A DNA stretch of 64,000 nt from Clostridia bacterium (GTDB lineage: Bacteria > Bacillota > Clostridia > Oscillospirales > Acutalibacteraceae). Under the pieces are notes generated by a model. That model did no database searches, was not told the DNA's origin, and saw only the letters and a list, made by a program, of their open reading frames with translations. Shown here piece by piece: positions 3,037-63,364 of this stretch; the stretch's first letter is position 1, and every line of letters begins with the position of its first letter. The stretch covers positions 1 to 64,000 of the forward strand of contig JAGAJB010000014.1 of the NCBI GenBank assembly GCA_017626295.1. Direction: 5' to 3'. The position numbers and the translations under genes are program-made.

Positions 3037-3164
3037 TAAATATGCGTTTTAATCGCCTGTATATAGATAATATATCTCTTATTATAGGATTGTATATCTC
3101 GTTTAATGAGAAATGCTGTTTCTGTATAATATTATAAATAGACAAAATACAACAGGCGGTGAGC

Positions 3165-3452
3165 TTACACGGTGTTTTCACGCTTTCAAAGCCAACCTCA
3201 AAACCCACTTTGTTAACAGCCCTCAACTGGATGTCAAGTGCAAGGGAACGCTTTAGAAAGTCAGAAAAGAAAACACTATCCATTGAAGAAAAAATGGAAG
3301 AAATCCGTATCGTTAACCGTGCAAAATGGTTGCTTATCAGCGAACTGAAAATGGACGAGCAAGGAGCTCATCGCTACATAGAAAAACAGGCAATGGATCG
3401 ATGCATTTCAAAACGGATTGTTGCAGAAGAAATTATAAAAACATACGCATAA
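3165..3452 (+). pseudogene. 5'-truncated copy of the ANTAR regulator gene
   Basis: The reading frame matches residues from about 99 to the end of the ANTAR protein encoded at 53-637, and DNA identity is very high toward the 3' end, including over 60 identical bases. The receiver-like half is missing. A GTG at 3159 could open a 97-residue product, but no ribosome-binding site or promoter is evident, and homology begins abruptly a few codons later. The intact ANTAR domain could in principle still work if expressed, so this is either a remnant or a stand-alone ANTAR protein. Together with the intact gene it brackets the YwlG and trpB genes. Confidence 0.7.
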
Positions 3453-3453
3453 C

Positions 3454-3497
3454 AGCAACAGCACGGCTTACAGTTTCTTGAAAGTCGTGCTGTTGCT
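3454..3497. repeat. Strong inverted repeat after the truncated ANTAR gene
   Basis: AGCAACAGCACGGCTT (3454-3469) pairs with the arm at 3482-3497 over 16 positions with one G-U pair and a 12-base loop. No U-run follows on either strand, so it is a weak candidate for a terminator; it may be a mobile-element boundary or an mRNA-stabilising hairpin. Confidence 0.6.
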
Positions 3498-3524
3498 ATA
3501 CAATATTCAAATGCCTGGCTGTTT

Positions 3525-3884
3525 TTATTTGTATATCAGTTCATCAAGTACAATTTCTTTTGCTTGTTGCTGAATGTTATTCATTCTCTGTACCCATTCA
3601 AGTTGATTTTCTTCTTTCAACTGCTCAGTAACACCCTCAGCCGCTTTCATTTGTTCAATGAGAGTATCAAACATATCACGAGCCTGCCTCTCAACTTCAG
3701 CACAGTGCTGATAAAGCTTACCTTGCATAAGCAGTGTGTTAAAGAATACATACTTATGCTTTTCAAGATATGTTTTATGTATAATACCCCACTTCCCAAG
3801 TGTGACTTTTGCTTCTTCGGGTGGTAAGATGAGGTTAGGAATTAAATAGTCACCAACACGGCGATATTGAATTTTGTTTGACAT
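3525..3884 (-). CDS. tnpV: TnpV family transposon-encoded protein
   Basis: The 119-residue protein matches the TnpV family found in mobile elements of gut Firmicutes: RRVGDYLIPNLILPPEE near the start, then LGKWGIIHKTYLEKHK, the GKLYQH segment, and EGVTEQLK with WVQRMNNI near the end. Its function is unknown. The ATG at 3884 follows AAGGAGGCTG and is preferred to the upstream in-frame ATG at 3917, which lies inside the preceding gene. It is translated just after the 51-residue gene at 3898-4053, whose stop codon overlaps the tnpV ribosome site. No recombinase or transposase is present, so this is probably a residual element. Confidence 0.85.
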   Translation of the reverse strand: MSNKIQYRRVGDYLIPNLILPPEEAKVTLGKWGIIHKTYLEKHKYVFFNTLLMQGKLYQHCAEVERQARDMFDTLIEQMKAAEGVTEQLKEENQLEWVQRMNNIQQQAKEIVLDELIYK

Positions 3885-3897
3885 AATGACAGCCTCC

Positions 3898-4053
3898 TTA
3901 TTTTTCACTTTTATCAATGATTTTCAATAACAGCTCGTCAACATCCTCGGTGGGCAAATTCTCCGCCAAGAGCATATTGCGAAACTCATTCATACCGTTG
4001 ATAAGTAAGTTGCACTCAAAATCCGTAAACTTAATTTTTGTCTTTCTACCCAT
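3898..4053 (-). CDS. Small TnpV-linked protein of unknown function (51 aa)
   Basis: This 51-residue reading frame has a basic start (MGRKTKIKFTDFECN) and an acidic C-terminal half (LPTEDVDELLLKIIDK). I do not recognise a characterised family. It lies directly upstream of tnpV, whose ribosome site overlaps its stop codon, so the two form one transcription unit. Its own AGGAGGT ribosome site is the 3' arm of a long hairpin at 4062-4106. A decayed homologue with the same hairpin arrangement occurs at 62861-63004, which shows that gene and hairpin travel together and supports real coding. Confidence 0.7.
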   Translation of the reverse strand: MGRKTKIKFTDFECNLLINGMNEFRNMLLAENLPTEDVDELLLKIIDKSEK

Positions 4054-4061
4054 AAAAAATG

Positions 4062-4106
4062 ACCTCCTGTTATTTGGTAGCTTTATTCTACCTTATAACA
4101 GGAGGT
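4062..4106 (-). promoter_or_regulatory. Hairpin sequestering the ribosome site of the 51-aa gene
   Basis: ACCTCCTGTTAT (4062-4073) and ATAACAGGAGGT (4095-4106) are perfectly complementary, with a further GGTAG/CTACC inner stem. In the minus-strand transcript the 3' arm contains the AGGAGGT ribosome-binding site 8 bases before the ATG at 4053. The fold should therefore block initiation unless it is opened. The same layout is repeated at 63012-63049. Confidence 0.75.
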
Positions 4107-4131
4107 TAGTCGAATGTGTGGATATGTAATT

Positions 4132-5571
4132 TTATATCATATTAAAATGTTTTAATGCATCCATTATGGCTTCTTCTTTTTCCTTCGGACATTTCGGCAA
4201 TCGGTGTCCTTCTTTGCCCTTGTTATAATTCTCACGCTCAATAATACCACACTTTGCCTTAACCTGTGATATGTAAAGACTTGACACTTTAAGACCGTGT
4301 TTATCAAGCACATAATTCTTGATTTCCTGATATGTTGCCTTGGTTTCAGCTGCGGTTACATCAAGCTCTGAGAGGTCAAGTTTTATGTCGATATGTGTGT
4401 CCGGTCTGCGATGGGACAAAAGAACAACCGTCTCCACATGGCTCGTATACGGAAACATGTCCACAGGCTGAATTTTCTTTACCTTGTAACCGTTTTTGGT
4501 TAAATAATATAAATCTCTCTGCTGGGTTTCGGGGTTGCAGGAAATGTAAACTATTTTCTCGGGTGCAAGGGACACTGCACAGGAAAGAAATTTTTTGTCA
4601 CTGCCTGCTCTTGGGGGGTCCATAAAAAGAACATCGCATTTCTCTCCCTGTTCTTTCATTGAAACCATAAATTCGCCTGCATCCGCACAGTAAAAACTTA
4701 TATTTTCTATCTCATTTATTTTTGCATTCACTTTGGCATCACGGACAGCATCGGGGTTTACTTCCACGCCTATAACTTCCCCTGCACCACAGGAGGCAAC
4801 GATACCTATTGTACCGATTCCGCAATAGGCATCTATTACCCTTTCTTTACCGGTAAGATCTGCAAACTCAACTGCCTTACCGTAAAGCACTTCTGTCTGA
4901 ACAGGGTTTATCTGATAAAAAGATTTGGGTGAAATTCTGAAACGGCAACCGCAGAGGATATCCTCAATATAACCTTTGCCGAAAAGTACGGTTTCTTTAT
5001 CCCCCAAAACCATACTTGTAAATTTATTGTTTATATTCTGTACTATTGTTGTAATATCGGGGTGAAGTCTGAGAAGTTCTTTTACGAAAGCGTTTTTGGA
5101 GGGGAAAACGGAAGTTCCCGTAACGAGAACCACCATTATTTCACCTGTTGTAAAACCGCGTTTCACAAGAACGTGACGGAGAAAACCTCTTGAATTTTTT
5201 TCATCGTAAACTGTCAGTTTAAAACTTTTTACAAGTTTTCTTACAGTTAAAATAATTTCATCCGCTTTTTTATCTTCAATAAGGCAAAAATCAGTTTTAA
5301 CTATATTATGTGTGCTTGACTGATACACACCCGAAATTATTTCACCGCCACGGGTTCTTCCGAAAGCAGCCTGCACTTTATTGCGGTAATGAAAAGGCTC
5401 TTCCATACCTATTATGGAGTTCACTCTGTGAAAACCCGACAGAAGTTTAACCACTTTTGACTGTTTAAAACGAAGTTGCTCTTCATAAGTCATATTCATA
5501 AGCTGACATCCGCCGCATTTTCTTGAAACAGGGCAAATTCTTGTGTTTTTAGTTGATTTAGTTTGTGGCAT
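4132..5571 (-). CDS. rlmD: 23S rRNA (uracil-C5)-methyltransferase, RlmD/RumA type, with C-terminal extension
   Basis: The enzyme methylates a uracil of 23S rRNA with S-adenosylmethionine. The N-terminus carries the CPVSRKCGGC iron-sulfur cysteines with a further Cys in TDFCLIED. The methyltransferase domain shows DAYCGIGTIG for SAM binding, the FMDPPRAG motif and the catalytic cysteine in YISCNPET. After the normal end of the domain (VETVVLLSHR) about 90 more residues follow, including DLSELDVTAAETKATYQEI and SSLYISQVKAKCG, an extension also seen in other clostridial homologues. I choose the ATG at 5571, which has AAAAGGA upstream and overlaps the gtrA end by 14 bases; the ATG at 5589 lacks a ribosome site. 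Family assignment is firm, the exact target base is inferred. Confidence 0.9.
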   Translation of the reverse strand: MPQTKSTKNTRICPVSRKCGGCQLMNMTYEEQLRFKQSKVVKLLSGFHRVNSIIGMEEPFHYRNKVQAAFGRTRGGEIISGVYQSSTHNIVKTDFCLIEDKKADEIILTVRKLVKSFKLTVYDEKNSRGFLRHVLVKRGFTTGEIMVVLVTGTSVFPSKNAFVKELLRLHPDITTIVQNINNKFTSMVLGDKETVLFGKGYIEDILCGCRFRISPKSFYQINPVQTEVLYGKAVEFADLTGKERVIDAYCGIGTIGIVASCGAGEVIGVEVNPDAVRDAKVNAKINEIENISFYCADAGEFMVSMKEQGEKCDVLFMDPPRAGSDKKFLSCAVSLAPEKIVYISCNPETQQRDLYYLTKNGYKVKKIQPVDMFPYTSHVETVVLLSHRRPDTHIDIKLDLSELDVTAAETKATYQEIKNYVLDKHGLKVSSLYISQVKAKCGIIERENYNKGKEGHRLPKCPKEKEEAIMDALKHFNMI

Positions 5572-6064
5572 TGCTGGTTTCCTTTTCATCTTTTTTAGCA
5601 GAACTGTTTGTATTCATACTGTTTTTATAAACTACAAAACGGCAGTACAAGAATTCCAATACCATATTAGATAACATCGTTACAGCGAGTACTATATATT
5701 CGCCGAAATCAAAAGGTATTTTTTGAGTTGCCATTTCACCAAGGATAACGGAAACAGGTGTGAACACGCAATAAAAGCCGAAAACCTTGAGCATAGCAAC
5801 GGGAATATTTGCCGCAGACTTAAACGTAAATTTGCGGTTAACGGTAAAATTCCAAAGTATAGAAAGAATCAGTGCCACAAGGTAGCAGCCGCCGTATTCG
5901 GACTCAAAAAACCATTTTGTAAAAGCATTTGTGCCCTGAACGTCGGGCATAAGTTCGTTAAGAAGTGTAAAACTAACCACTTGAATAACTCCTGCCGAAG
6001 CAGAAAACAGCGCAAACTTTACGGCTTGCAATATATTATCTTTTTTACTCATAGTGCCTGACAT
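5558..6064 (-). CDS. GtrA family membrane protein
   Basis: This 168-residue protein has four hydrophobic segments typical of GtrA (about residues 10-32, 50-70, 88-108 and 118-140 with the WNFTVNRKFTF signature between the second and third). GtrA-like proteins are linked to flipping lipid-linked sugars for cell-surface glycans. The start at 6064 follows AGGGG with 8-base spacing; the ATG at 6070 is too close to that site. The gene overlaps rlmD and is probably co-transcribed with it. Confidence 0.85.
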   Translation of the reverse strand: MSGTMSKKDNILQAVKFALFSASAGVIQVVSFTLLNELMPDVQGTNAFTKWFFESEYGGCYLVALILSILWNFTVNRKFTFKSAANIPVAMLKVFGFYCVFTPVSVILGEMATQKIPFDFGEYIVLAVTMLSNMVLEFLYCRFVVYKNSMNTNSSAKKDEKETSNATN

Positions 6065-52615: not shown

Positions 52616-54001
52616 ATGGAACTTAAAGAATATTTTTCTACACAGTGCCGAGGGAGTGCAATTATATTAAAAACGGGAAGTCCTGCTTTTAAAACACTCG
52701 TTTCGGGGAAAAACGGCAAAAACAAAAACGGAATTGTTGCTACATATAATTTTGACGGTTTCAAACTTGATATTTCATATATAGAACAAGGCAGTGCGGC
52801 TTATGCTCAGCAGACAATATGGCTTTCATTCGCCCTTGACTGCGACCCGACCATTCCCTTTTCCGTGTATGATATTTTAGCCTTTGCAGAGCCTACTAAC
52901 TTTAACTGTTACACCTATACTTTTGTTGACTCAAGAGAACTTATGAGGGATTGTTTCGGCGATATTAACGAATTACTTATTTCACTTATACCGAAACTCA
53001 CTGCTATACTCCAAAACGGCATTACTAAAAACCGACTTATAACATCCCAAAAAGAAAGTGTAAACCGATACTTTGGTGACAATGTCCTTGAAAGCGGCGA
53101 TATGTTAGGCGGTGCGGCAGATAAAATTATAAATATGATGCTCAAAAATTTCTTTGAGGCACAAATTGAATCTGCGGTAGTAGGCGCACAATCATTATTT
53201 TTTACGGGTAAAACCGAAAAAGCCTTAAAAAAACTCAAAAAAGCCAAATACCGTTCACAATACAACGAAAATCTTATTAAATATATTGAAAACGGCGGTA
53301 AAACTGATGAAATAAGTTCCGCAGTCAAAAACGCTTCTGTGGAGAAAGGGGTTATCCGTCACGGCGGCGGAGCAAAAGGCACTGTAAAATTACTGTTTAT
53401 TTCATTGTTCTTTGATGTTTTAATTTCAGTTGTCTTATGCGCTATTTTTTATTTAATATGTACCTTTTCATTTAAGGACAGCATTTTTATTACGGGTATT
53501 TCAGAAAATATGATTTTAATACCCATTTTCGCTTTTCTTCTTTCAACGGCTTTGGGTACCCATTTTATAAAACACCGAGAGCAAAAAGTAAAATCTCAGG
53601 GTGATAAAACAATACATTCTCCGAAGTTCAGCAAGACAACCGAAATATTCTTAAAATATTTTACAATTACAGCAGAGTGCGTTGCAATTTTAGGTCTTTT
53701 AACCTGTGTTAATTCTACTGCGGTTTTTTATGAAAATTCTTTTAAATATTCGGAAGAATTCTTCCCACTCTACCAAAGTGAAATCAACTATTCCGCAATA
53801 GATTACTTTTCTTTGGTTGACGGATACACCGTTGACGGCAAATTTCAAAAAGACCCTCATATTATTGCCGTTACCAAAAGCGGAGAGCAAATTGATTTAT
53901 ATAATTCTACGTTTTTTTCGGCTGAAAAATTCAAAGAAAACTCTACTGAATTTTTTGAGGAAAAAGGTATAGAATTCAAAGAAATTAAAAACTTTAACTA
54001 A
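52616..54001 (+). CDS. Membrane protein of unknown function
   Basis: The 461-residue protein has a soluble N-terminal domain of about 250 residues (MELKEYFSTQCRGSAIILK, with SAAYAQQTIWLSFAL), then three membrane segments (about 262-290, 302-325 and 350-378), and a C-terminal outer or inner domain. I do not recognise a family. The N-terminal domain has no visible catalytic motif. The ATG at 52616 follows GAAGGA and has its own promoter and terminator, so it is an independent unit. Confidence 0.75.
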   Translation: MELKEYFSTQCRGSAIILKTGSPAFKTLVSGKNGKNKNGIVATYNFDGFKLDISYIEQGSAAYAQQTIWLSFALDCDPTIPFSVYDILAFAEPTNFNCYTYTFVDSRELMRDCFGDINELLISLIPKLTAILQNGITKNRLITSQKESVNRYFGDNVLESGDMLGGAADKIINMMLKNFFEAQIESAVVGAQSLFFTGKTEKALKKLKKAKYRSQYNENLIKYIENGGKTDEISSAVKNASVEKGVIRHGGGAKGTVKLLFISLFFDVLISVVLCAIFYLICTFSFKDSIFITGISENMILIPIFAFLLSTALGTHFIKHREQKVKSQGDKTIHSPKFSKTTEIFLKYFTITAECVAILGLLTCVNSTAVFYENSFKYSEEFFPLYQSEINYSAIDYFSLVDGYTVDGKFQKDPHIIAVTKSGEQIDLYNSTFFSAEKFKENSTEFFEEKGIEFKEIKNFN

Positions 54002-54002
54002 T

Positions 54003-54037
54003 AAAAATTCTCCTATGATTAACATAGGAGAATTTTT
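54003..54037. terminator. Bidirectional terminator
   Basis: AAAAATTCTCCTATG pairs perfectly with CATAGGAGAATTTTT around a 5-base loop, serving the converging membrane-protein and GH92 genes. Confidence 0.9.
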
Positions 54038-54039
54038 AT

Positions 54040-56286
54040 TTATTCTATAAACGAATTAAAAACTTCTTTCAATACATCTTCGCAAGGCTCTTTTGAAAGT
54101 TCAAAAGTTAAAACACCGCCCGATGTAATTTCGGAGAATGTCAGATACGGTTTTGTTATTTCTGTTCCGTTTAAATGCACTGTTTTAATATACGGATATT
54201 CCAACGGATTGTTATCACATTCAACGAAAAACGTGTCCGAAACTTCGCAAGAATGGTATTTCGGGTCAAGTTTAATTTTTGCCTTTTGGAAAAGCGGTGT
54301 GTTTATAAAATATTCCTCATTACACGGACAAACCTGAGCAAATCCAAGCGCCGATAAAACATACCAGGCAGAAAGTTGCCCTACGTCTTCGTTACCGCAA
54401 AAACCGAATGCGCCTGTGCGATAGGCTTCTTTTTGCACTCGTCTTGTCCAATACTGCGTTCTGTGGGGAAGTCCCAACATACTGAAATAATGGGTTATAT
54501 TATGACAAGGTTCATTTGAATGGTTATAGTCATCATTCCACAAAGCGCCGAAATCGGCTCTGCTGAAAAACTCTTCTAAAAGTTCTATTGTGCGCTCTTC
54601 ACCGAACAGTTCTGAAAGTCCGATAACGTCATAAGGCACGAACCAGGACTGTTGGAAAATATTGCTTTCCACGCAACCGTCGTCATCGTATCTGTCATTT
54701 TCAAAGACGAAAGCACCTGATTCTTCTCTGGGTGCCATAAATCCGAGCGATTTATTGAAGTTCTCTTTATACCGTTTTACACGATTCATAAAAAATTCTT
54801 CATCTTCGGTTTTACCCAGCATTTTCGCAAGTTTTGCGGTGGTGTAATCTGCAAGTAAAAATTCCAAAGTATCACTTAATTCTTCAGGAACGTAGCAATT
54901 TTCAAGGTACTGCTTGCAGTCGGGTCTTACCGAGCGGAAAGGTTTTCCGAAAAGTTCCTTTTTACAAAGTGCAGAGGCTTTCATAATTTCATAAGCCTTC
55001 TCTACGTCAAAGTTTTTGATACCCTTAACAGCCGCATCACAAACCACAATTGTAGCAGGGTCACCAACCATACAACCTGCATTTATTCCCAGAAGTTCCC
55101 ATTGAGGTAATGACTCATTTCTGTGTTCTGCAATTCTGAGTAAAGAATTAACTTCGTCATTTACCATTTCGGGTCTGATAACAGTAAGCAAAGGGAACTC
55201 GCTTCTGTAAACATCCCAACCGCTGAACAATGTGCGGTGTGTATAATCGGCAGTAAAAACAGTTCCGTCACCGATAGTAAATCTGCCGTCCACATCCATT
55301 GCAGAACGAGGATCTAAAAACACGTGGTAAAGACAAGTATAAAAAAGTTTAAGGTCAATTTCATCTGTGCCTGTTACTTCAACGCCATCAAAAACTTTTT
55401 CCCATTCATAAGATGCTCTCTCTTTCATCTTATTGAAATCGAAGTCTTTGCTTTCCGCTTCAAAATTTTTGAGAGCACCCTCTGAATCCACATAGGAAAC
55501 ACCTGCTTTTATGATTACAGGCTCGTTTACGTCTTCACCGAAGTGAACTACAAGACCTACGTCTTCGCCTTCGTAAGTTTTTATATCACCGTCAATATAT
55601 GTTTCATTGGAGAAAAACTGCATTTTCGTTGCAGGAACGGATAATTCGCACACGAAATAAAAGTCATATGAAATACCGCCGTGGCCGTGACCGAATCCGC
55701 CACCTTTGGGCGTACAGTGAATGTAACCTTCTATTCGCCTGTCATTGATAATATCAATATGTTGAAAATCAGCCTTACCGCCGATTCTTCGTGAGAAATT
55801 AAAAATGGCTCTTTTATCCGCATTTTCGGGGTATGTAAATCTGAGCATACCTGTATGGGCAGAAACCGTGGCTTCCGCTAAAATATTGTATCTGTCTAAC
55901 AATACGGAGTAATACCCCGCACCTGCAGTTTCGTTTTCGTGAGAAAATCCGGATTTCCAACCCACAGTTCCTTTTTCAAAAGGTACGTGCTCGTTACTGC
56001 CGCTGCGAAGGTCCGTTTCCCCCACAACAGGCATAATCTGTAAATTACCCAAATCACCGTACCAACCGATGCCACTCATATGATTAAAACTGAAGCCTTC
56101 AATTGTGTTCTGGCAATAATTGTAGCCCGTGCCGTTATCCCCCCCTGTAACAGTATCGGGTGAAAGTTGCACCATTCCTCCGGGGGTACAAGCACCGGGA
56201 TGGGTTTTACCGCCACCGTGGGAAGTTTCTGATTGTTCTTCACCCACAGTGCCTATCATCGGATCAATATATTTTGCCTTTTCCAT
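54040..56286 (-). CDS. Alpha-mannosidase, glycoside hydrolase family 92
   Basis: GH92 enzymes are calcium-dependent exo-alpha-mannosidases. The 748-residue protein has YIDPMIGTVG and HPGACTPGGMVQLSPDT in the N-terminal domain and the family motif GNEDVGQLSAWYVLSALGF with the catalytic region in the C-terminal barrel. No signal peptide is visible, which is unusual since many GH92 enzymes are exported. The ATG at 56286 is preferred because AAAGGA touches the ATG at 56295. It lies 15 bases after the GH3 gene. Confidence 0.93.
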   Translation of the reverse strand: MEKAKYIDPMIGTVGEEQSETSHGGGKTHPGACTPGGMVQLSPDTVTGGDNGTGYNYCQNTIEGFSFNHMSGIGWYGDLGNLQIMPVVGETDLRSGSNEHVPFEKGTVGWKSGFSHENETAGAGYYSVLLDRYNILAEATVSAHTGMLRFTYPENADKRAIFNFSRRIGGKADFQHIDIINDRRIEGYIHCTPKGGGFGHGHGGISYDFYFVCELSVPATKMQFFSNETYIDGDIKTYEGEDVGLVVHFGEDVNEPVIIKAGVSYVDSEGALKNFEAESKDFDFNKMKERASYEWEKVFDGVEVTGTDEIDLKLFYTCLYHVFLDPRSAMDVDGRFTIGDGTVFTADYTHRTLFSGWDVYRSEFPLLTVIRPEMVNDEVNSLLRIAEHRNESLPQWELLGINAGCMVGDPATIVVCDAAVKGIKNFDVEKAYEIMKASALCKKELFGKPFRSVRPDCKQYLENCYVPEELSDTLEFLLADYTTAKLAKMLGKTEDEEFFMNRVKRYKENFNKSLGFMAPREESGAFVFENDRYDDDGCVESNIFQQSWFVPYDVIGLSELFGEERTIELLEEFFSRADFGALWNDDYNHSNEPCHNITHYFSMLGLPHRTQYWTRRVQKEAYRTGAFGFCGNEDVGQLSAWYVLSALGFAQVCPCNEEYFINTPLFQKAKIKLDPKYHSCEVSDTFFVECDNNPLEYPYIKTVHLNGTEITKPYLTFSEITSGGVLTFELSKEPCEDVLKEVFNSFIE

Positions 56287-62751: not shown

Positions 62752-62860
62752 CAGCGCTCTCTCCTTAAATATTCACTTCATTTTTATCCGTATTTTATCA
62801 TATCAAATCCATATAATCAAGCAACTATCCTAACAACCTTTGTTGTTTAAATCCTATTTG

Positions 62861-63004
62861 ATTAATAATTATCAATAGCCGTTCGTCAACATCTTATGTG
62901 AGGATACCGTCCGAGAAAGTTTTGTTTCGGAACTCTTTCATTCCGTTGATTAAAAGGTTACACTCAAAGTCCGTGAGTTTCAGTTTTGTTTTCTTACTGA
63001 ACAT
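62861..63004 (-). pseudogene. Decayed second copy of the small TnpV-linked gene
   Basis: From the ATG at 63004 the product MFSKKTKLKLTDFECNLLIN closely matches the 51-residue protein encoded at 3898-4053, through KEFRN. An indel then shifts the frame and a stop occurs at 62894 after 36 codons. DNA homology to the intact gene continues past that stop (CAATAGCCGTTCGTCAACATC at 62872-62892), so the original frame was longer. The tnpV that should follow is absent. Confidence 0.72.
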
Positions 63005-63011
63005 AAAAATG

Positions 63012-63049
63012 ACCTCCTTGTATTTGGTAATACCATTTTACAAGGAGGT
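63012..63049 (-). promoter_or_regulatory. Second ribosome-site-sequestering hairpin
   Basis: ACCTCCTTGTA (63012-63022) pairs perfectly with TACAAGGAGGT (63039-63049). In the minus-strand transcript the 3' arm is the AGGAGGT site of the decayed gene, as at 4062-4106. Both hairpins are followed in the plus direction by TCGAATGTG. Confidence 0.7.
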
Positions 63050-63071
63050 TTGTGTTTTGTCGAATGTGCGG

Positions 63072-63100: not shown

Positions 63101-63140
63101 TGGTGGATGCTTGAGGATTCGAACCTCACGCCTACATCCC
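63101..63140 (-). other. 3' end of a tRNA or tmRNA, probable attachment-site remnant
   Basis: On the minus strand the sequence ends with a T arm TGAGG-TTCGAAT-CCTCA (63128-63112), an acceptor strand AGCATCC, discriminator A and CCA (63103-63101). No matching 5' acceptor (GGATGCT) or anticodon arm is found upstream, so only the 3' part is present. Integrative elements commonly use and duplicate such 3' ends. The GGCG just before the T arm also fits a tmRNA end. Confidence 0.6.
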
Positions 63141-63364
63141 TTTATATTAATGCACTCTACTTATAAATACAACCTTCAGCTACCTCAACAGCACCCACGT
63201 AAGACGGCGGATAAATCCCCAGGAACACCTATCAAAACTATACAAATCATTAATAAATACAGTCCTTTCATTTCACATTTAAGTTCAAATCCATTTTTGA
63301 ATTTCTTAATAAAAGATAGTGTTGAGTTGGCTATAAATATGAGCAGAGCACAGATAAAGGACAA
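63141..63364. other. Intergenic debris next to the att-like site
   Basis: No convincing gene is seen here. On the minus strand the frame of the upstream gene stays open for 59 codons after its stop codon (to 63185) with a hydrophobic, Cys-containing tail, but it lacks a start signal. Confidence 0.4.

Follow-up and report, generated by a model that had tools for sequence, protein, structure and literature searches.

In IS10/Tn10, RNA that enters the element by read-through reportedly folds over the ribosome site, while RNA begun at the element's own inward promoter is said not to do so, and a parallel protection against read-through operates in IS50. A passage of PMC2965389 credits Davis, Simons and Kleckner (1985) with having established that the transposase of Tn10 is protected from read-through, and the same article describes mobile attenuators upstream of insertion sequence genes, 5′ structures that silence an inserted element in transcribed regions. 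For IS200, PMC3196728, which summarises Beuzon, Marques and Casadesus (1999), describes two stem-loops, one that terminates impinging transcripts and a second that occludes the ribosome site. For the TnpV protein of Tn4451, a role in excision has been postulated from its likeness to lambda Xis (PMC3158075), and the title of Lyras et al. (2004; cited in PMC5704250) states that TnpX alone is enough for the transposition of Tn4451/3.

The leader described here stands at the left end of a tnpV-bearing unit in a 64,000-nucleotide stretch of Clostridia DNA (the window). As in IS10/Tn10, the ribosome site would be closed in read-through RNA and open in RNA from the unit's own promoter; IS10, however, protects a transposase, whereas the TnpV leader heads a 51-residue protein or tnpV and carries its 5′ arm within the −35/−10 spacer, and no sequence relation between the two is claimed. 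IS200 likewise has a stem-loop near its left end that occludes the ribosome site, but IS200 possesses a terminator for impinging transcripts, which the TnpV leader, with no T-run, does not, and TnpV (PF14198) is not a Y1 transposase. Mobile attenuators are transcription terminators, in contrast to the TnpV leader, which would act on translation. Compared with Tn4451/Tn6104-type elements, with which the TnpV family (PF14198) is held in common, the present unit is small (ca. 0.6 kb) and has no recombinase of its own; of the features that mark Tn4451-type elements, tnpV is present, and the tnpX large serine recombinase and a mobilisation gene are both absent from within the unit. With regard to the read-through-protected elements, a class defined by function and not by sequence family, closure of the Shine-Dalgarno sequence (SD) in entering transcripts is found here by computation, and the first gene of the unit, be it the gene for the 51-residue protein, tnpV or a gene for an 82-residue protein, is in no case a known transposase.

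Genes of the TnpV unit

The first gene of the unit in the window (3898-4053, minus strand) comprises 51 codons and encodes a protein for which AlphaFold predicts two helices (residues 11-30 and 36-50) and for which nothing matched in Pfam, NCBIfam or PHROGs. The second gene is tnpV (3525-3884, minus strand; PF14198, E = 1.7e-43). Its SD shares bases with the stop codon that ends the 51-codon gene (TAAGGAGG); on account of this overlap, translational coupling between the two genes is probable, and tnpV would be subject to the same gate. A TTG at 3917 is a possible start of tnpV, and the ATG at 3884 is the one provided with the SD. Fold searches of the PDB with TnpV and the 51-residue protein gave no match below E = 1. 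An inverted repeat after tnpV (3454-3498, minus strand) is probably a terminator at the 3′ side of the unit, which stops behind tnpV here and at most other loci. Upstream, on the same strand, lies a rumA/rlmD-like gene (4132-5589), the putative source of read-through, with its stop codon only 12 nt from the conserved motif of the leader.

A predicted promoter within a hairpin

The initial annotation had proposed that a perfect 12-pair stem, together with an inner stem, covers the AGGAGGT site of the 51-codon gene, and this is confirmed by folding. On the minus strand, positions 4106-4062 read ACCTCCTGTTAT-AA-GGTAG-AATAAAG-CTACC-AA-ATAACAGGAGGT, in which an outer stem of 12 perfect base pairs encloses an inner stem of 5 bp (GGTAG/CTACC), with a minimum free energy of −25.5 kcal/mol (z = −5.9), a value equalled by 0 of 200 shuffled sequences. 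On the combined evidence of sequence and fold, the 5′ or anti-SD arm is ACCTCCTGTTAT (4095-4106, minus strand) and the 3′ arm is ATAACAGGAGGT (4062-4073, minus strand), which contains the SD (AGGAGG, 4068-4063) and is followed after 8 nt by the ATG of the 51-codon gene; the inner stem, assigned from the fold (4076-4092, minus strand), appears in relatives with GGTAG/CTACC exchanged for GGTAA/TTACC. Perfect inverted repeats with arms of 11 bp or more and a short loop arise by chance about once per Markov-resampled window on average (largest, 5), and in 60 such windows there was no case of an SD core inside a perfect short-loop repeat of at least 11 bp. A search of the leader against Rfam 15 matched no family, whether riboswitch or other known leader. 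A transcription terminator was considered as a reading of the stem and was ruled out, since no T-run follows it.

What had been overlooked is the key feature of the leader, a predicted promoter that overlaps the hairpin. Conservation and spacing point to a −35 box (TCGACT, 4108-4113, minus strand) and, separated from it by 17 nt, a −10 box (TAGAAT, 4085-4090, minus strand), such that the 5′ arm falls inside the spacer, the inner stem overlaps the −10 box and the predicted transcription start lies at about 4078, some 7 nt past the −10 box. The consensus of this promoter, TCGACW-N17-TARAAT, comes directly after a conserved left-end motif, which in the window reads CACACATTCGAC (4109-4120, minus strand; consensus CRCACATTCGAC). 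The promoter in the window is also listed by a general promoter scan; the deviation of its −35 box from TTGACA counts against the guard reading given below.

A search of the GTDB species genomes with the 51-residue protein gave 131 confirmed loci, of which 80 were kept, all from Clostridia, Oscillospiraceae or Eubacteriales assemblies and often several to a genome; 78 of these have sufficient upstream sequence. Among the 78 leaders, the motif (CATTCGAC or a close variant) is retained in 72, a −35/−10 pair is found in 74, and the pairing probability of the SD exceeds 0.8 in 72. The two boxes are 17 nt apart in 71 of the 74 promoter-bearing leaders and 18 nt apart in the other 3, the leaders having been collected by protein homology alone, and a spacing of 17 nt is also seen in almost all of 72 distinct leaders from two stem subfamilies. 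When the hairpin is not required, the pattern TTCGAC..TARAAT..GGAGG has 27 matches in 200 genomes of the family, where its reversed control yields about 10; the hairpin is present at the majority of the 27, new stems among them. The DNA upstream of the motif is host sequence, unrelated between loci, or else one of a handful of shared sites.

A recurrence of the arrangement at 63 kb, with other bases in the stem, had been noted at the outset and is borne out. The hairpin of this second leader (63012-63063, minus strand) extends from 63049 to 63012 (z = −5.0) and pairs ACCTCCTTGTA (5′ arm, 63049-63039) with TACAAGGAGGT (3′ arm with the SD, 63022-63012), a stem that differs from that of the first copy and stands in another register. 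Its motif (CGCACATTCGAC, 63059-63070, minus strand), −35 box (TCGACA, 63063-63058) and −10 box (TAAAAT, 63040-63035) are all present, and the promoter spacing is equal in the two copies (TCGACT-N17-TAGAAT versus TCGACA-N17-TAAAAT), whereas the offset of the hairpin is different. The 51-codon gene at 63 kb is a pseudogene with an in-frame TAA (62858-63004, minus strand), and tnpV is absent behind it. A third copy is found elsewhere in the genome, on a different contig. At 63101-63196 (minus strand), immediately upstream of the 63-kb copy, ARAGORN predicts a tRNA to which it assigns no type, 96 nt long and with an odd anticodon, which is probably degenerate because Rfam shows no tRNA match.

Selection on the pairing

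Compensatory change that preserves the stem, initially proposed from the two copies in the window, extends well beyond them. In an arm-swap test using one representative of each of 25 stem families, the arms pair with their own partners at −17.5 kcal/mol and with swapped partners at −12.2 kcal/mol, and 0 of 20,000 permutations reach the observed value. Read column by column along the SD arm, the collected stems also contain two or three Watson-Crick types at several positions; T-A, G-C and C-G pairs, for instance, all occur at the third base upstream of the SD core. Furthermore, one leader (L148) has a long stem of entirely different sequence, and two others (L163 and L143) have independent stems as well. 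These observations support selection on the pairing that closes the ribosome site. Loss of the stem with retention of the SD is rare, the stem being weak or degenerate only in L041 and L086 among the 78 loci; in L062, L067 and L076, fusion to other DNA has removed the leader entirely. In the 5′ arm opposite the SD, changes are mostly from C to T, by which a G-U pair is kept in RNA, but pair-breaking T-to-C changes are common too, and the wobble pairs are for this reason not decisive between selection at the RNA level and at the DNA level.

A probable guard against read-through translation

The placement of the promoter atop the hairpin, where the spacer takes in the anti-SD arm and the −10 box falls within the loop or next to it, suggests a means by which the leader could distinguish between transcripts. 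RNA from the unit's own promoter would begin past the anti-SD arm and leave the SD largely free, so that the 51-codon gene and the coupled tnpV could be translated; RNA entering from an upstream host gene would possess both arms, form the long hairpin and be blocked in translation. After insertion downstream of an active gene, a unit would in this way stay under the control of its own promoter. As computed for 70 leaders, the median cost of opening the SD is 14.2 kcal/mol in read-through RNA versus 2.2 kcal/mol in the predicted native RNA, in which some residual structure is left. An SD closed in the one and mostly open in the other argues that the leader is probably a guard against the translation of read-through transcripts, and not a ligand-sensing switch, a reading drawn from sequence and computed structure.

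Read-through appears to be a real exposure for these units, to judge from the short distance behind the rumA/rlmD-like gene and from the setting of the relatives: at 33 of 54 distinct sites the unit follows a gene that runs in its own direction, and in 18 of these 33 the stop codon is no more than 37 nt from the motif. Where the gap is this short, the unit has no space for a second promoter of its own ahead of the hairpin. Against the guard count the weak or absent hairpins of some standalone relatives in which the motif is kept (L173, L183 and L186), the absence of the hairpin from two serine recombinase leaders, and the CRCACATT stretch of the motif, which is conserved beyond the needs of a promoter; lying upstream of the −35 box, CRCACATT may be the site of a recombinase or a regulator.

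Such a guard would constitute an undescribed version, in a widespread Clostridia unit, of the IS10-type answer to accidental activation, and the hiding of the closing arm in the promoter spacer would make of it a compact translation gate that senses where transcription began. The only named gene of the unit, tnpV, is without established function, and a guard on the pair formed by tnpV and the 51-codon gene suggests that expressing them out of turn carries a cost. This hints that they take part in excision or transposition, and the guard would open a direct route to the study of both. It may be speculated that a guard makes sense if TnpV or the 51-residue protein influences excision.

Alternative readings

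The palindrome could instead serve as DNA, either as an operator over the promoter for a regulator of the element, such as the 51-residue protein, or as a cruciform or recombination end, although we consider this unlikely. The initial alternative of a palindromic element end has in its favour that the palindrome spans the promoter and sits only a few nucleotides in from the conserved left end, and compensating changes alone do not tell RNA from DNA. However, the stem sequence differs greatly (25 families) between units in which the motif is preserved, which is unusual for a protein site, and only the SD and its complement are invariant. No matching palindrome, as expected of a terminal inverted repeat, was found at the right end, and the serine recombinase genes that bear the same motif and promoter at L048:1102 and L157 do so without the palindrome, which speaks against the hairpin as a recombination site.

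A switch in the unit's own mRNA, in which a longer transcript of the unit would contain both arms and be opened by a signal (a protein, a small RNA or temperature), is somewhat less probable again. The earlier idea of an RNA switch or translation gate is supported insofar as the stem covers the SD completely and the pairing that closes it is selected; a switch on the gene's own mRNA is not supported, given that the predicted start of the conserved promoter lies past the 5′ arm. Nor is there conserved sequence upstream of the motif from which a longer transcript could start, the stop codon of the upstream gene being only 5-37 nt away in many sites, and a conserved alternative fold, a ligand-binding core and an Rfam match are all absent.

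That promoter and SD were selected separately, with their complementarity a by-product of copying in a few recent families, is very improbable: many loci are indeed closely related, and an SD facing an anti-SD-like CCTCC supplies part of the pairing, but the arm-swap test took a single representative per stem family and the stems of L148, L163 and L143 are independent.

Distribution and apparent mobility

Although the hairpin was at first tied to the 51-codon gene, the same leader also precedes tnpV directly (L143, L145, L148 and L149) and a gene for an 82-residue protein that begins with MHSFDETK (L146 and L127), and would therefore belong to the left end of the TnpV unit and not to the 51-codon gene. 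Downstream of the leader, the 51-codon gene is followed by tnpV, by a gene of 92-103 codons and then tnpV, or by neither; homology between loci ends at the tnpV stop codon or just beyond, and differing terminators follow.

A guard would be of use to units surrounded by nothing but host DNA, and the pattern among diverged relatives of the 51-residue protein, though the sample is small, fits this. In other families of the class, about 15 relatives located within operons, behind an open frame, nearly always lack both motif and hairpin, while some 8 diverged standalone relatives have CRCACATT-like motifs. Three loci from outside the family (L163, L164 and L177) possess the motif, the 17-nt spacing, TACAAT and a closing hairpin; in other standalone relatives with the motif, the hairpin is borderline (L175) or weak to absent (L173, L174, L183 and L186). 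A simple-regex test of the association between motif and hairpin in the distant relatives gave no significant result (p = 0.09), in part because L175 and L186 were missed by the regex.

Named relatives of the 51-residue protein occur in two plasmid records only and in no phage record. Three named tnpV genes on plasmids (L235, L236 and L237) have tet(O), HTH or recombinase genes as neighbours, and the leader is absent from them: in the Streptococcus plasmid pSGG1 (L235), tnpV adjoins tet(O/W/32/O) without a hairpin leader, and in the Campylobacter coli plasmid pCOS502 (L237), it lies directly behind a recombinase gene, again without the leader.

The unit is apparently mobile, as suggested by its copy number, diverse flanks and common left end. 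A clean empty site was found neither for the 63-kb copy, whose relatives have the flank with the PHP gene and then diverge at a variable spot, nor behind the rumA/rlmD-like gene, where the nearest orthologue (L127) has another gene with the same type of leader. A recombinase lies near the unit in a few loci only (L048 and L080). Three serine recombinase genes, identified by reading the translations (L048:1102; L157:1497, minus strand; L080:15), start with the CACATTCGACAAA motif and the promoter spacing of the TnpV unit, and the last has a weak hairpin; a shared end or a shared regulator site would explain the motif that they have in common with the unit. Tentatively, then, the pair formed by tnpV and the 51-codon gene could be a minimal mobile element of an undescribed sort, which serine recombinases with the same CRCACATTCGAC end would move in trans, and the leader with its promoter in the hairpin could be a portable start module that keeps an excision-type TnpV and its helper from being expressed by accident once the element has landed where transcription passes.

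Tandem units are present in L014 (236 and 1163) and L039 (2584 and 2938), as well as in the upstream flank of L020, L025, L030 and L036. Their order is a leader with the genes of 51 and 92-103 codons, or with the 82-residue MHSFDETK gene, then the palindrome CGGTAGCGGCTACCG or a close variant, then a second leader unit. In L066, just past the stop codon of the 51-codon gene and about 220 nt from the motif, there is a second hairpin (CCTCCTGTAAATGGTGTTACCAAATACAAGGAGG) from which CATTCGAC is absent, as if two leaders had recombined.

Within the window, a C-terminal extension of about 90 residues (4132-4420, minus strand) sets the rumA/rlmD-like protein apart from most relatives in the genus, whose matches end near residue 391-394; the one relative with the extension, L127, also has a leader gene behind it. 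The ANTAR response-regulator gene at 53-637 has a truncated duplicate, 86% identical in DNA sequence, in the 97-residue ANTAR gene behind trpB (3159-3452), and this duplicate is not present at the corresponding place in a close relative (L009). A perfect inverted repeat of about 18 bp with a short loop (AATAAAAATTCTCCTATG) is located at 54000-54040.
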